A stretch of DNA of 64,000 nucleotides from Opitutia bacterium (GTDB lineage Bacteria > Verrucomicrobiota > Verrucomicrobiia > Opitutales > Opitutaceae). Shown here piece by piece: positions 173 to 12,405 of the stretch. The position numbers and the translations under genes were made by a program. Below the pieces are notes generated by a model. It was not told the DNA's origin and made no database searches. It worked only from the letters and a program-made list of their open reading frames with translations. The stretch lies in contig JACPIT010000011.1 in assembly GCA_016187945.1 (NCBI GenBank), forward strand, positions 1-64,000, read 5' to 3'. The stretch's first letter is position 1; each line of letters begins with the position of its first letter.

Positions 173-1945
173 CTACCTCACAGAAAAGGCCATTCCCTCC
201 TCCGGCAACAGCGGCGACGGAGCCCGCAAATACTCGCGATCCGTAAGCGTCCGCAAAAACGCCACGAGCGCCGCCTGATCGTCGGCGCTCAACCCGAGCC
301 CGCTCTTCGGATGCTTCGCGAGATTCGGATCGAGGTTCGCCGCACGCTGCATGCCGTGGTCGTAGTGCCCGACGACTTCCTCGAGCGTCTGAAAACGCCC
401 GTCGTGCATGTAGGGCGCAGTGAGCGCGACGTTGCGCAGCGACGGCGTCTTGAAGCGCCCGCGGTCGTCGGCGCGACCCGTCGCGTTCTGCGCGCCGGCG
501 TCGAGCGCCACGAGATCGAGCCCGTTGTTCTTCGCCGCGAAATCGCTGAAGAGCGGGCCGCCGTGGCAATGAAAACAGTCCGCGCCGTTCCGGCCGCGCG
601 CGGGGTCGTATTCCATCATGAACAGCTCGAACCCGCGCTGCTCCTGAGTCGACAGCTTCGTCGTGCCCGCCCGCGCGGCGTCGAAGCGCGAGCGATTCGA
701 CACGAGCGTGAGCAGGAACTGCTCGAACGCCCGGCCGATGCGCTCGCCGGTGATTTCTTCGCTGCCGAACGCCGCGGCAAAATCCTCCCGCACGCGCGGA
801 TCGTCGCTGAGATCGACGACGACGTCGGCCACGCCCGCGTGCATCTCGATCGGATTCGTCATCGCGGCGAGCGCCTGCTCGCGGATGGTTTTCTTCGTGC
901 CGTCCCACGCGTAGGCGGGATGCCACGCGAGATTGAAGAGCGGCATCGCGTTGCGCCGGCCGAGATCGCCTTCGCTGCCGCGGCTGAGCGCGACGCGGTC
1001 GCTGAATGCCGCGCGCGGATCGTGACAGCTCGCGCACGACTGCTCGCCGTTGCGCGAGAGGCGGCGGTCGAAAAACAGATGCTCGCCGAGCGCGACGCCT
1101 TCCTCGGTCAGAGGGTTGTCGGCGGGCAAGCTCGGTTGCGGAAATCCCGCCGGCACCGTGAATGCGAGCGGCGTGCCCGACGTCGCGCGCGTGGCCGGCT
1201 TTTCTTGCGCCGCCACGGCGCACGCGTCGGCCGTCCGCGCCTCGAGCCAGAAAAACGCGCGCTCCGTGCTGCGCGCCAGCGCGCCGGCCAGTGAGTCGCC
1301 GGCCGCCGAGTGCGTGGAGTCGCTGCCGTCGCTCGTCGCGAGCCGGCGGTCGCGAAACAGCGCAGCGACGTTCAGCGCGAGTTCGACCTGCGTCGCCGCA
1401 TCGACTTTGAAATCCGCGAGGAAGCGCACGGTCATGAGCTGCGCGTCCTTCGCGAGATGATAGGAAAAACCGGCGGCATCGCCGCCGCCGGGCTCGCGCC
1501 AATACCCTTCAAGCGCGAGGAAAACATAACCGCCCGACCAGCTCCAGTGTAGCCCGTTGGTTTGTGGATTCAGAGCATGGCCGGGCGGCCAAATTCCAGG
1601 ATCGGCGTGGTTCACCGCGTCGGGCACGCCGATGCGAACCTGCAAACCGCGGTAGTCGCCCGCCGGCACGTTCGCGAGCGCGACCTCCAGCCGTCCGCTC
1701 GCGGCGTCGACGAAGCCGTATTGCCCCTCGAGGCGCACGACCGAGCCGTCGGGCCGCAACAGTTGAAAATCCGACAACAGCGCCGCGAGCCGCGTCACGC
1801 GCACCGTCTGCCCCGCCGCCGTGGCGAACTCGCCCGCCGGCACCGCGAGCGGCGCATCGCCCCAGCGCGGCGCGATCCGCACGCTCAGCTCCGCCGCACC
1901 GAGAGCGACGGCGACGGAGGCAAACAGGCAGACGAGGCGGAGCAT
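173..1945 (-). CDS. MbnP-MbnH fusion: copper-binding protein fused to di-haem MauG/CCP-like enzyme
   Basis: 590 aa with an N-terminal signal peptide (about 1-18). Residues 19-240 resemble the MbnP family: the stretch near W134 and W136, followed by GGYVFLALEG, matches the conserved Trp/Gly/Tyr block of MbnP. Residues 270-575 are a di-haem cytochrome c peroxidase/MauG-type domain with two CXXCH haem sites (C304-H308 and C457-H461) and the PYMHDGR motif at 511-517. In methanotrophs MbnH and MbnP are separate, and MbnH converts an MbnP tryptophan to kynurenine, creating a Cu(I) site. Here substrate and enzyme would be one periplasmic polypeptide (inference). The ATG at 1945 is divergent from the response-regulator gene. 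The TAG stop lies in a GTAG-ended repeat-like sequence. No methanobactin precursor or biosynthesis gene is seen nearby. Family call is firm for the enzyme half and good for the MbnP half. Confidence 0.85.
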   Translation of the reverse strand: MLRLVCLFASVAVALGAAELSVRIAPRWGDAPLAVPAGEFATAAGQTVRVTRLAALLSDFQLLRPDGSVVRLEGQYGFVDAASGRLEVALANVPAGDYRGLQVRIGVPDAVNHADPGIWPPGHALNPQTNGLHWSWSGGYVFLALEGYWREPGGGDAAGFSYHLAKDAQLMTVRFLADFKVDAATQVELALNVAALFRDRRLATSDGSDSTHSAAGDSLAGALARSTERAFFWLEARTADACAVAAQEKPATRATSGTPLAFTVPAGFPQPSLPADNPLTEEGVALGEHLFFDRRLSRNGEQSCASCHDPRAAFSDRVALSRGSEGDLGRRNAMPLFNLAWHPAYAWDGTKKTIREQALAAMTNPIEMHAGVADVVVDLSDDPRVREDFAAAFGSEEITGERIGRAFEQFLLTLVSNRSRFDAARAGTTKLSTQEQRGFELFMMEYDPARGRNGADCFHCHGGPLFSDFAAKNNGLDLVALDAGAQNATGRADDRGRFKTPSLRNVALTAPYMHDGRFQTLEEVVGHYDHGMQRAANLDPNLAKHPKSGLGLSADDQAALVAFLRTLTDREYLRAPSPLLPEEGMAFSVR

Positions 1946-2055: not shown

Positions 2056-2793
2056 ATGGATTCCTCCGCGCCCGGCCGCACGCGGCTGCTGATGATCGAC
2101 GACGACCGCAAACTCTGCCGCCTCGTCGCGACCTACCTCGAGCCGCTGGCGTTCGAGGTCGTCGCCGTGCACGACGGCCGCCTCGGTCTCGAACGCGCCA
2201 CTGACGCGGCGGAGAAATGGCACGCCGTCATCCTCGACGTGATGCTGCCCGGGCTGGACGGCTTCGAGGTGCTGCGCGGCATCCGCCAGAAAAGCACCGT
2301 GCCGGTGCTGATGCTCACGGCGCGCGGCGACGAGACAGATCGCATCGTCGGCCTCGAAGTCGGCGCGGACGATTACCTGCCGAAGACTTTTTCGACGCGC
2401 GAACTCCTCGCGCGCCTCCGCGCCGTGCTGCGCCGCGCGGCGACCGCCACGACGCCAGCGAGCGCGGCGGCCGCGCCCGTCCAGGAACTCGTGGTCGGCG
2501 ACCTGCGCGTGAATCTCGACGCCCGCAGCGCCGCGATGGGCGCGACGGCGTTGGTGCTGACGCCGGTCGAGTTCGACTTGCTGGCGAGTCTCGCGAAGGC
2601 GCGCGGCCGCGTGAAGACGCGCGAGGCGCTCCTCGACGAGTGTCGCGACCGCAACTACGACGTCTTCGACCGCTCGATCGACGTGCACATCTCGGCGCTA
2701 CGGAGAAAGCTCGGCGACGACGCGAAGCAGCCGCGCTTCATCCGCACGCTGCGCTCTACGGGCTACATGCTCGTCGATCCGCGAGCGGAGTAG
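2056..2793 (+). CDS. OmpR/PhoB-family response regulator
   Basis: 245 aa. Receiver domain at 9-123 with the acidic pair at D15-D17, phosphoacceptor D61 in ILDVMLPGLDG, T88 and K110 (KT instead of the usual KP after the lysine). A winged-helix DNA-binding domain follows a Thr/Ala-rich linker and fills about 150-240, with the typical LTPVEFDLLASLAK and VDVHISALRRKLGDD-type motifs. It would act as a cytoplasmic transcription factor phosphorylated by the kinase at 4870, its likely partner although a divergent gene lies between them. The ATG at 2056 was chosen because the receiver begins right after it; the reading frame stays open far upstream, but that part is antisense to MbnPH. TAG stop sits at the start of a GTAGGGCCGG sequence. 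Confidence 0.9.
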   Translation: MDSSAPGRTRLLMIDDDRKLCRLVATYLEPLAFEVVAVHDGRLGLERATDAAEKWHAVILDVMLPGLDGFEVLRGIRQKSTVPVLMLTARGDETDRIVGLEVGADDYLPKTFSTRELLARLRAVLRRAATATTPASAAAAPVQELVVGDLRVNLDARSAAMGATALVLTPVEFDLLASLAKARGRVKTREALLDECRDRNYDVFDRSIDVHISALRRKLGDDAKQPRFIRTLRSTGYMLVDPRAE

Positions 2794-2953: not shown

Positions 2954-3014
2954 GTAGTGCGGTGCTTCAGCCCGCACTGCAAATTTTTCGGCGCGGGCTG
3001 AAGCACCGCGCTAC
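2954..3014. repeat. Palindromic repeat, family B, copy 1; contains the YHYH gene stop codon
   Basis: Arms at 2954-2975 and 2993-3014 (GTAGYGCGGTGCTTCAGCCC and its complement) around a short AT-rich loop. The TAG stop of the YHYH gene (3011-3013) lies in the terminal GTAG of the right arm. A second copy is at 12429-12490. Confidence 0.85.
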
Positions 3015-4744
3015 TTTCCGAGCTTCCGGCCGCCGAGCCGCACCGCACGCGCGAACGCGATCAGCGAGAACGCCGCGAGGAACCAGCCGCTGGGCGCGCC
3101 CCCGCCTCCGCCGCCGGAGGACGCGCTCGCGGCGGCGGCGGGCGACGTGGTCGTCGTCGGGGTGGTTGTCGTGGTCGTGGTGGTCGAATTTGCCGGCGTG
3201 CTCGCGCCGTTGGTCGCGCCGGTGGCGGTGCTGCCGGTGCCGGTGTAGTGGGGCGTGGCCGTCGTGCCGACGGGGGTGCCGACGGTGGCGTTGGTGTCGT
3301 AGGTCGCGATCGCGGTGAGCGTGACGCGGAAGTAAGCCGCCGTCGCCGCGGTCGTGTAGCTCGTCGTCGCGCCGCCGCTCGTGATCGAGGAACTGAGCGT
3401 CGCGAACGTCGCGTTGTCGGACGACGACTCCAGTTTGTAGGTCGCGCCTTCGGCGGAGTTCCACTGGAGCGCGACGCCGCTGCCGGACGCGGTGCCGGTG
3501 AGCGTGAGGGCGGCGGCGGGGGCGCCGCGGTCGTATTCGGTGACGGTTTCGCTCACGCTCGTGACGGCGCCGCCGGTCGGATTGCCGTAGAACCAGCGGC
3601 CGATGAGGTGCGGGAATTTCGGCGTGCCGTCGGCTTCGATCGTGACGAAGTAGGCGTAGGTGCCGCTCGGGAATTCGGGCGTCACGCAGAAGCGGCCGTT
3701 GAATTGGTCGAGGTCGAAGTCGACGCCCTGCATCCGGCCGAGGTCGCCGAGGTAGTCGTAGTCCTCGAGGTAGTGGCCGAGCGCGTAGGTCGTCGAGACG
3801 GCGGGGCCGTATTGTGCCGCGGTGAGCGTCGTGCGGTTTTGCGCGCGCTGCGCCCACGCAGGCAGCGTCGTGCGGCCGGTGGCGCTGAGATTGGTCGTGC
3901 CGGTGCCGCCGTTGCGGAGGACGTAGCCGGACGTGAGACGGCGCACTTCGCTCGCGGCGCTGAGCGGCGACGAGTAGCCATAGGGGCCGTAGATCGGATA
4001 GCCGTCGGCCATCCAGCCGAGGATCGGCGAGTGCTTCGTGACGGCGGTCGCGCTCTCGCGGTAGCTGCGCGTGGTGGCGTCGTAATCGACGTGGTCGCCG
4101 ACGAGGTGGCGGAGCGCGGGCGTGTTGGCATGGTAGTGGTATTGCGCGCCGGCCTGGTGCGCGTAGGCGGGATCGAAGGTCTGGCCTTCGTTCGCGTAGG
4201 CTTCGCGATTCCAGATGCCGTCGCCGCGCGCGGTGCTGCCGGGCTCGGCGTCGGTCCCGCTCGCGTTGGTGTAGGAATACGTGTCGCGGTTGTCGAAGAG
4301 CGCGACGCCGTCGATGCCGTAGCCGATCGCGCCGGCGCTCGTGAGCGTCTTCGTCGCGGGCACGGTCGGATTGCGCGGCAGGCGATAGAGCACGTTCGTG
4401 TTCGCGGGGAAATTCGGGAACGTCTGCGTGTGCGCGGCGTTGCCATACCACGGCCCCATCGTGTGGTAACCGAGGCCGGTCGAGCGCAGGTAGACCCAAT
4501 CGCTCGAGTAGGAAACCTGCGTGACGCCCGCGTAGGCCGGCGAGGATTGCGTGCCGGAGCCGCGGCTCCACGTGGTCGAGGCGGTGCCGGCGGATTTCGC
4601 GGCGTCGCTCTGGTAGAGGCGCGCGTAGTTGCCGGCGGCGTCGGCGAGCCACGACGTGATGCGCGGATCGGTGACGTTTTGCGCGGCGAGCGGCGCAGCG
4701 AGAGAAACGAAAACAGCAAGGCGGGACCAGCGAAGCGGGTTCAT
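3011..4744 (-). CDS. Secreted YHYH-domain protein with Gly-rich C-terminal sorting-like tail
   Basis: 577 aa. Signal peptide at about 1-21. A YHYH domain spans roughly 70-400: the literal YHYH tetrapeptide is at 202-205, followed by HSPILGWMADGYPIYGPYGY at 238-257, the hallmark of the family. The function of YHYH proteins is not established; the conserved histidines suggest metal binding. A fibronectin-III-like stretch follows, then a Thr/Ser-rich linker. The C-terminus is a Gly6 run, a hydrophobic segment (WFLAAFSLIAFARAV) and a basic end, resembling a GlyGly-CTERM-type surface-sorting tail. The gene is divergent from the histidine kinase gene and shares its GTTAAG-box intergenic region, suggesting common control with MbnPH. 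The TAG stop falls inside a repeat arm. Confidence 0.85.
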   Translation of the reverse strand: MNPLRWSRLAVFVSLAAPLAAQNVTDPRITSWLADAAGNYARLYQSDAAKSAGTASTTWSRGSGTQSSPAYAGVTQVSYSSDWVYLRSTGLGYHTMGPWYGNAAHTQTFPNFPANTNVLYRLPRNPTVPATKTLTSAGAIGYGIDGVALFDNRDTYSYTNASGTDAEPGSTARGDGIWNREAYANEGQTFDPAYAHQAGAQYHYHANTPALRHLVGDHVDYDATTRSYRESATAVTKHSPILGWMADGYPIYGPYGYSSPLSAASEVRRLTSGYVLRNGGTGTTNLSATGRTTLPAWAQRAQNRTTLTAAQYGPAVSTTYALGHYLEDYDYLGDLGRMQGVDFDLDQFNGRFCVTPEFPSGTYAYFVTIEADGTPKFPHLIGRWFYGNPTGGAVTSVSETVTEYDRGAPAAALTLTGTASGSGVALQWNSAEGATYKLESSSDNATFATLSSSITSGGATTSYTTAATAAYFRVTLTAIATYDTNATVGTPVGTTATPHYTGTGSTATGATNGASTPANSTTTTTTTTPTTTTSPAAAASASSGGGGGGAPSGWFLAAFSLIAFARAVRLGGRKLGK

Positions 4745-4869: not shown

Positions 4870-6333
4870 TTGAAGCTCTCCCCGCCCCTCTGGATCAAAG
4901 TCTGGCTGCTGCTCGCCGTGAATTTCGCGCTGCTCGCGACGCTCGGCGCGGCGTGGTTCTTCGCGCGCAGCGAGCGCGGCTGGGAACGGATCGCGCTCGG
5001 GCCGCTCGGCGATCGCGTCGCAGCGATCGCGGACGACATCGCCGACCGTCTGTGGTCCGCGCCGCCGGAAGAAGCGGCAGCGGTGCTGGACGCCGAGGCG
5101 AGCGAGCGCGGAGTGGATTTCCTGTGGCTGCGCAACGACGGACTCGTGCTCGCGGGACCATCGCTGCCGCTGCCGGCGCCGGTGCGCGACGAGCTGCGGC
5201 GGCGCGGACCGCTCGACGCCGAGATGCGTGGCGGCCGACCGCCGGAGGACGACGTTCCGCGACCGCGCGGCGAACGCCTGCCGCCGGGGCAACTCCGCGG
5301 CGGGCCGGGACGGTTTTTGTTTCGCGTGGACGGCAGCTACTGGTTCGGCCTGCGTCTGCATCCCGCGCCGGAACAGGTGCGCGAAGACGACTTGCCGCCG
5401 CGCACGACGCTGGTGATCCGCGCGCGCTCGACGTGGAGTTTTGCCCGGCTGCTCGGGCTGCATTGGTGGGTCGGCGTCGCGGCGGGCGCGCTCGGGCTGT
5501 CGGTGCTGTTCTGGCTGCCGTTCGTGCGTTCGATCACGCGGCGGCTCGACGCGCTCACGGCGGCGACGGACCGGCTGGCCGAGGGGAAATTCGCCACGCG
5601 CGCGCCGGTCGGCGGCGCGGACGAGATCGGCCGGCTCGGCGGCGCGATCAACGGCATGGCGCAGCGCCTGGAGTCGCACGCGGAGGCGCAGAAACGTTTT
5701 CTCGGCGACGTCGCGCACGAACTCGGCTCGCCGCTCGGCCGCCTGCAAGTCGCCGTCGAACTCCTCGAGCAGCGCGCGCCCGGTCCGCTCCAGCCGGCGG
5801 TTGCGGACGTGCGCGAGGAAGTGCAGCAGATGGCGGAACTCGTGGGCGAACTGCTGGCGTTCACGCGCGCCGGATTGCAAGCGCCCGCGGCCGCGCGCGC
5901 GCCGGTGCCGCTGGCGCCGCTCGTCGCGGAGGCGCTCGCGCGCGAGAACGCGGACGGCCGCGTCGCGGTCGGCGTGCCCGCCGATCTCGTCGTGCTCGGC
6001 GACGCGGCGCTGCTGCGGCGCGCGATCGGCAATCTCGTGCGGAACGCGCTGCGCTACGGCGGCGGCGCGGTGCGCGTCGACGCGGAACGCGTCGCCGATC
6101 GCGTGCTCGTGCGCGTCGACGACGATGGCCCGGGCGTGCCGCCCGAGGCGTTGGCGCGGTTGGGCGAGCCGTTTTTCCGGCCGGAGAGCGCGCGGGCGCG
6201 CGACACCGGCGGCGTCGGACTTGGGCTCACGATCGTGCGCTCGAGCGCCGCGGCGTGCGGCGGCGAAGTGATTTTCGCGAACCGCGAGCCGCGCGGGTTT
6301 CGCGCGGAGTTGCGGCTGGCGGCGGCGGAGTAA
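4870..6333 (+). CDS. Two-component sensor histidine kinase
   Basis: 487 aa from a TTG start; the first membrane segment begins nine residues later, which supports this start. Topology: TM1 at about 11-31, a periplasmic sensor of about 160 residues rich in Arg/Pro/Gly near 110-145, TM2 at about 199-218, then HAMP (about 219-272). Phosphoacceptor H283 lies in AHELGSPL (H-box with G-S where R-T is common). ATPase domain with N392 (N box), DDDGPGVP at 417-424 and GGVGLGLTIV at 447-456. It probably phosphorylates the regulator at 2056-2793; the pair is split by the divergent YHYH gene. The signal is unknown; copper or an oxidant is suggested only by the MbnP-MbnH neighbour. Confidence 0.88.
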   Translation: MKLSPPLWIKVWLLLAVNFALLATLGAAWFFARSERGWERIALGPLGDRVAAIADDIADRLWSAPPEEAAAVLDAEASERGVDFLWLRNDGLVLAGPSLPLPAPVRDELRRRGPLDAEMRGGRPPEDDVPRPRGERLPPGQLRGGPGRFLFRVDGSYWFGLRLHPAPEQVREDDLPPRTTLVIRARSTWSFARLLGLHWWVGVAAGALGLSVLFWLPFVRSITRRLDALTAATDRLAEGKFATRAPVGGADEIGRLGGAINGMAQRLESHAEAQKRFLGDVAHELGSPLGRLQVAVELLEQRAPGPLQPAVADVREEVQQMAELVGELLAFTRAGLQAPAAARAPVPLAPLVAEALARENADGRVAVGVPADLVVLGDAALLRRAIGNLVRNALRYGGGAVRVDAERVADRVLVRVDDDGPGVPPEALARLGEPFFRPESARARDTGGVGLGLTIVRSSAAACGGEVIFANREPRGFRAELRLAAAE

Positions 6334-12325: not shown

Positions 12326-12405
12326 TGTAGGAGCGGCTTTATGCCGCGATTCGCTCGGACGCGGCATGCGCTGCGCAGCAATCGCGGCGTAAAGCCGCTC
12401 CTACA
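12326..12405. repeat. Palindromic repeat, family A, copy 2
   Basis: Arms at 12326-12349 and 12382-12405, nearly identical to 2818-2894. Families C, A and B stand side by side here and fill the 12101-12505 gap. Confidence 0.85.

Follow-up and report, generated by a model that had tools for sequence, protein, structure and literature searches.

A verrucomicrobial open reading frame joins an MbnP domain to an MbnH-type di-haem domain and may encode a self-maturing copper protein

In Methylosinus trichosporium OB3b the di-haem enzyme MbnH reportedly oxidises the first tryptophan of the WxW motif of MbnP, and copper binding by MbnP is said to require that tryptophan. The window, by which we mean the whole 64,000-nucleotide stretch of DNA from an Opitutia bacterium that was analysed, holds an open reading frame that was originally predicted to join these two proteins in one. 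Does this frame indeed encode enzyme and substrate as a single chain, does the arrangement recur in other genomes, and what might such a protein do? The frame and its domains are laid out as follows.

173..1945, reverse strand: fused MbnP-MbnH protein, one uninterrupted open reading frame with an ATG start, 590 amino acids
1892..1945, reverse strand: signal-peptide-like start, residues 1-18, recognised by eye, cleavage site approximate
1331..1891, reverse strand: MbnP domain PF20243, residues 19-205 (Pfam, 3.2e-32; Foldseek, 7l6g)
1145..1231, reverse strand: inter-domain linker, residues 239-267, variable, limits set by eye
245..1141, reverse strand: MbnH/MauG-type di-haem domain, residues 269-567 (Pfam, NCBIfam, sequence and fold matches)

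The N-terminal half matches the Pfam MbnP family PF20243 across residues 19-205 with 112.4 bits against a cut-off of 27, and this excludes the outcome that had been named in advance as fatal to the prediction, a failure of that domain to match MbnP profiles. It lies below the stricter curated cut-off of TIGR04052, the NCBIfam model of WxW-containing MbnP (36.4 against 140 bits). The other half of the original prediction, that a MauG-type di-haem domain is part of the same protein, also holds: within the one frame CCP_MauG PF03150 is found at residues 282-429 with 1.8e-50, the strongest single Pfam match of the protein, and a cytochrome c match to the second haem half (residues 456-567) is marginal at 21.4 against a cut-off of 21.3 bits. 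The MbnH model TIGR04039 scores 242.1 bits, which is below its cut-off of 362.85 and yet the best score among the NCBIfam models listed; the MauG model TIGR03791 scores 165.8 bits. The domains had been called directly joined. They do share one open reading frame, but a linker of 29 residues separates them, and among 34 fusions this segment is variable in sequence and measures 19-42 residues, with a median of 29. In its own genome the frame at 173-1945 was the sole PF20243 match found.

Structure prediction returned both known halves with unequal clarity. The AF2 model, built from seven sequences, has a mean pLDDT of 55.7 and a pTM of 0.45; pLDDT is below 50 across most of the haem domain and at residues 134-138, the WxW segment, while the N-terminal domain is fair, with values of 84-92 for residues 21-110 and lower, uneven values beyond. 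Foldseek places MbnH (6e1c) first and MbnP (7l6g) fourth. The match to 6e1c rests largely on sequence, because its TM-score by target is 0.33 and its rmsd 13.1; by sequence, 6e1c, the MbnH of Methylosinus, is the closest solved chain (3e-48). The link to 7l6g relies on the fold search (best E 9.5e-9, probability 1.00, TM-score by target 0.41-0.52 over six chains, 17-18 percent identity), since a sequence search of the PDB with the N-terminal domain alone gave weak matches only, the best at 0.2. Viral contigs yielded no related loci for the AF2 alignment by homology search or by one pattern; three loci with partial haem-domain matches in such contigs were left out of the AF2 input.

The fusion is a recurrent arrangement. 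When 57 genomes, its own included, were searched with the whole protein, seven of the others proved to have full-length matches, the lowest identity being 42 percent, and one of these seven carries two copies. A public genome collection supplied six further loci, of which L032 seems, by its equal length, to be the same contig as G035. PF20243 exceeds its cut-off at 26 places, spread over 22 of the 387 genomes of a phylum sample, and at 67 places in 62 of the 384 genomes of a class sample; all 67 were checked (24 and 43). MbnP and haem domain lie in one open frame at 66 of these 67 places, two of which (G541 and G156) are frame-broken further along or before; at the remaining place, G628, the match ends with the contig. 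The search for other fusions that the original prediction had called for gave 76 fusions, which have been aligned. An assembly artefact is rejected as their origin, as the fusion recurs in 76 proteins of which the closest pair is 90.9 percent identical. An intact standalone MbnP was seen in neither the phylum (387) nor the class (384) sample. A candidate for one in a distant member of the phylum (G168, locus L058) was rejected: judged by eye, it is a broken copy beside a YHYH gene, in which the start of an MbnP domain gives way to transposase-like sequence.

A tree of 47 haem domains, rooted at its midpoint and drawn without MauG and the classic peroxidases, groups all 34 fused domains of the first set together (98/95). 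Seven unfused MbnH-type enzymes form a group of their own (96/88) beside the fused one, the two being joined at 97/82 under the midpoint root; an MbnP gene lies near six of these seven, and none was seen near the Diaphorobacter enzyme. Four other verrucomicrobial di-haem proteins in the tree fall outside the joint group. Two unfused domains sit on long branches: L011 adjoins the fused group (98/94), and L010, a verrucomicrobial haem domain that has no MbnP half, lies inside it. L010 looks like a protein that has lost its MbnP half, and the tree would be read most simply as a single gain of the fusion followed by one loss. The haem domain alone may also be useful, because L010 stands within the fused group without its partner.

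Beyond the phylum, fusions were sought in plasmid records and in one close-relative scan of genome contigs. The whole protein matches 370 plasmid records, of which only that of D. grandis covers at least 80 percent of it, and there the genes are separate; the N-terminal domain matches six plasmid records, and in all five inspected the genes are separate too. At six plasmid loci (D. grandis, D. radiodurans, Methylocystis, Ideonella, Paracoccus and Trichormus) P and H are separate genes with P first; in five of them the two overlap by 4 bases or lie 2-78 bases apart, and in D. grandis two genes stand between them. The neighbours of these pairs include copC/copD or a copper resistance gene, SCO and PCu(A)C, TonB receptors, or mbnB/mbnC. 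In the plasmid annotation of four loci (L066, L094, L095 and L096) MbnH-like di-haem proteins are labelled 'methanobactin export MATE transporter MbnM', a label that is evidently wrong. Our search for an earlier description of an MbnP-MbnH fusion covered parts of PMC3912023, PMC3621798, PMC12607021 and PMC10167746, though not the two main MbnH/MbnP papers, and found none; one may be in print.

The fusion had been said to occur without any methanobactin gene, and the genome bears this out. Its one MbnB-family match is a bufferin maturase, scoring 338.4 bits with the BufB model (cut-off 310) and 35.2 bits with the MbnB model (cut-off 325), and a profile search of the genome for MbnC, run without a positive control, gave no match. 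According to part of PMC3621798 the MbnP/MbnH pair is conserved far beyond methanobactin producers, so the missing genes are unsurprising. This maturase, a BufB-class MNIO enzyme, belongs to a bufferin-type cluster in the C1:340058 region (L088), where it stands beside a short peptide with Cys-containing KGKDGC repeats and a DUF2063/HvfC-like protein.

Residues were compared in both domains. Counts were taken over the 76 fusions, 34 from the first set and 42 added later, and single out the following positions.

1538..1546, reverse strand: W134-x-W136 motif, W134 being the predicted kynurenine (alignment of 76 fusions)
1547..1549, reverse strand: His133, possible copper ligand, in 76/76 fusions; another residue in 6/6 standalone MbnPs
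1457..1459, reverse strand: His163, best candidate ligand, in 76/76 fusions and 6/6 standalone MbnPs
1310..1312, reverse strand: His212, second candidate ligand, in 76/76 fusions; Met of C-M-S in 4/4 classic MbnPs
1022..1036, reverse strand: first haem c motif CASCH, residues 304-308, in 76/76 fusions
563..577, reverse strand: second haem c motif CFHCH, residues 457-461, in 75/75 alignment rows with letters
362..364, reverse strand: Tyr528, at the haem ligand position, in 74/74 rows with letters

The tryptophan block lies where it had been claimed, as W134-S-W136. Its first tryptophan is present in every fusion and the second in 75 of the 76; the exception, L057, retains W134 and is a natural test of which tryptophan of the motif matters. 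D217 is likewise invariant, and H123 is found in 64 of the 76. In the haem domain Tyr528 aligns with the tyrosine of MbnH, which in turn aligns with the methionine of ordinary di-haem peroxidases, and W341, W347 and Q357 (76/76) and E367 (75/75 rows with letters) are equally constant; W347, Q357 and E367 presumably correspond to Trp93, Gln103 and Glu113 of MauG. The conservation of W134 together with Tyr528 fits a chemistry that would convert tryptophan to kynurenine.

A candidate copper site emerges when the fusions are set against six standalone MbnPs, four of which we call classic (Methylocystis, Ideonella, Paracoccus and Trichormus) and two of which come from Deinococcus. W134, W136 and H163 are common to all six; H133 and H123 occur in none. 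Where the four classic proteins have C-M-S...D the fusions have T-H-S...D, on which two alignment settings agree, and among the columns printed that of H212 is the only methionine column retained in all four. The Deinococcus proteins have T or Q in this column and a histidine three columns further on. No methionine of the N-terminal domain is invariant across the 34 fusions examined, and the methionine of the classic C-M-S is missing from the fusions; because of its absence the copper site, if there is one, differs from that of classic MbnP. The alignment of H212 with that methionine suggests a His-for-Met change in the predicted site. In OB3b MbnP the Cu(I) ligands are reportedly a histidine, a methionine and water, near the kynurenine, and the WxW, histidine and methionine-column positions of the fusions fit such a site. 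If the OB3b ligand is the C-M-S methionine, the fusions would have a kynurenine site with two histidines, comparable to the H64, H114 and Kyn62 given for the copper site of CorA in part of PMC3912023.

Several known systems share parts of this picture. With MbnP and MbnH of OB3b (7l6g, 6e1c) the fusion has in common the WxW motif and His163, a match to MbnP in profile and fold, a pair of haem c motifs, the tyrosine at the ligand position and the order of P before H; it differs in being one chain where OB3b has two genes, in occurring without a methanobactin operon, in its invariant His133, in having His212 for methionine, and in scoring below the TIGR04052 and TIGR04039 cut-offs. Both of its halves match a Deinococcus radiodurans locus (L065) that encodes an MbnP-family protein and a cytochrome-c peroxidase with CopC and CopD; this locus is also without the C-M-S methionine, but its two genes are separate and lie 55 bases apart. 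MauG is a di-haem enzyme with a tyrosine ligand that oxidises tryptophan of a partner protein, methylamine dehydrogenase, at a distance. Its product differs, being tryptophan tryptophylquinone, and its partner is separate. In the CorA/CorB and MopE/SACCP systems of methanotrophs, as described in the available part of PMC3912023, a kynurenine lies beside Cu(I) with two histidines and a di-haem peroxidase is encoded with the copper protein, its role there being only suggested; CorA and MopE have W-x-H (Kyn62, His64) where the fusion has W-x-W, and they are separate proteins.

We think it probable that the fusion binds copper after export and brings its own maturation enzyme with it, as a tethered and self-maturing kynurenine protein. 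Once the chain had been exported and haem attached (cytochrome c assembly proteins are present in the genome), the C-terminal MbnH-type di-haem domain would react with peroxide and reach a high-valent state, such as the bis-Fe(IV) state characteristic of MbnH. The high-valent domain would then convert Trp134 in the N-terminal MbnP domain into kynurenine, which would complete a site outside the cytoplasm in which His163 and His212 (or else His133) would bind Cu(I), a two-His site replacing the His-Met site of classic MbnP. The modification had been predicted to be intramolecular. The linker of 19-42 residues may act as a flexible tether that would hold enzyme and substrate at 1:1 and within reach of each other, and with such a tether the reaction could take place either within a chain or between the chains of a dimer.

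A maturase that acts once has no need of a 1:1 hold, yet 66 of the 67 places in the class sample are fused. This observation, together with the invariance of the haem motifs, Tyr528, W341, W347, Q357 and E367 in rows with letters, is what might be expected if the di-haem domain, besides maturing the copper site once, stayed active there, exchanging electrons with copper or using peroxide as a standing redox enzyme. Neighbouring genes in P-H order would also give a fusion simply, however, and no sequence feature was found that points to electron exchange with copper. We regard such a standing role as unlikely, if worth keeping in mind.

Three genes lie upstream of the fusion.

2056..2793, forward strand: OmpR-type response regulator, divergent from the fusion (Pfam, NCBIfam)
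3011..4744, reverse strand: YHYH-family protein PF14240, a conserved neighbour (Pfam)
4870..6333, forward strand: sensor histidine kinase, start codon uncertain (Pfam, NCBIfam)

In a gene-cluster comparison of 27 loci, two of them from one genome and all counts being lower bounds, the response regulator cluster was present in at least 13, the kinase in at least 9 and three YHYH clusters in at least 12, 4 and 3. No known copper gene adjoins the fusion of the window among the neighbours scanned with Pfam and NCBIfam. Elsewhere a cation efflux gene occurs at one locus (L075) and a cupredoxin-like domain protein at another that has a YHYH gene (L085), and among 17 flanking proteins scanned, ten of them from loci that lack YHYH, we saw no common partner. 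The YHYH protein itself found no PDB chain by sequence (E up to 1) and no plasmid record (E up to 1e-5), and its model has a mean pLDDT of 32.8. The window also contains an inverted repeat with 22-base arms (TAGGAGCGRCTTTACGCCGCGA) in two copies, at 2820-2892 and 12328-12403; it is REP-like, with 4 matches against 0.01 expected.

The association with YHYH raises the question of whether the main substrate of the di-haem domain is another protein, for which the YHYH protein is the obvious candidate, the MbnP domain then serving for docking or to supply copper. A profile search puts a YHYH gene within 5 kb at 19 of 31 places, a count that includes the broken G168 and G156 copies. Every one of the 22 genomes with PF20243 in the phylum sample has such a gene somewhere, against a total of 48 among the 387 genomes (hypergeometric 7e-23, kinship ignored), and in four loci the two open reading frames, whose start codons were assigned mechanically, share 1-4 bases. 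But 12 of the 31 places have no YHYH gene within 5 kb, some of the genes in the per-genome count are copies of different length that lie far away, the genomes share ancestry, and W134 is conserved just as strictly as the haem motifs. An external substrate seems to us rather improbable. We prefer to see the fusion as a tethered, self-maturing protein that probably handles copper outside the cytoplasm with the neighbouring YHYH protein and under the control of the adjacent two-component system.

Finally, the strongest single Pfam match (PF03150) might suggest a standard di-haem cytochrome c peroxidase whose MbnP domain has decayed or been repurposed. We find this very improbable, as the protein has tyrosine and not methionine at the haem ligand position, the MbnH model outscores MauG and the other NCBIfam models listed, and the N-terminal domain is not decayed, WxW and the three histidines being found in 75 or 76 of the 76 fusions.

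The MbnP and MbnH pair is already known, and the fusion is not a new type of system; what is new is the arrangement of the two in one chain. A bolder idea, which we offer tentatively and think rather unlikely, is that of a self-maturing copper redox enzyme in which the di-haem domain would first build the two-His kynurenine site and then remain to exchange electrons with it, acting jointly with the YHYH protein in an as yet undescribed response to copper or peroxide. For the self-maturing copper-binding protein that we favour, the covalent join would fix the stoichiometry of enzyme and substrate, and kynurenine formation could be tested after purifying just one protein, which is harder when MbnH and MbnP come apart. 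The fusion also lends independent support to the view that MbnP and MbnH act together in bacteria that do not make methanobactin. A His-for-Met variant of the copper site is predicted from it, and it links the YHYH family to this putative kynurenine and copper chemistry.
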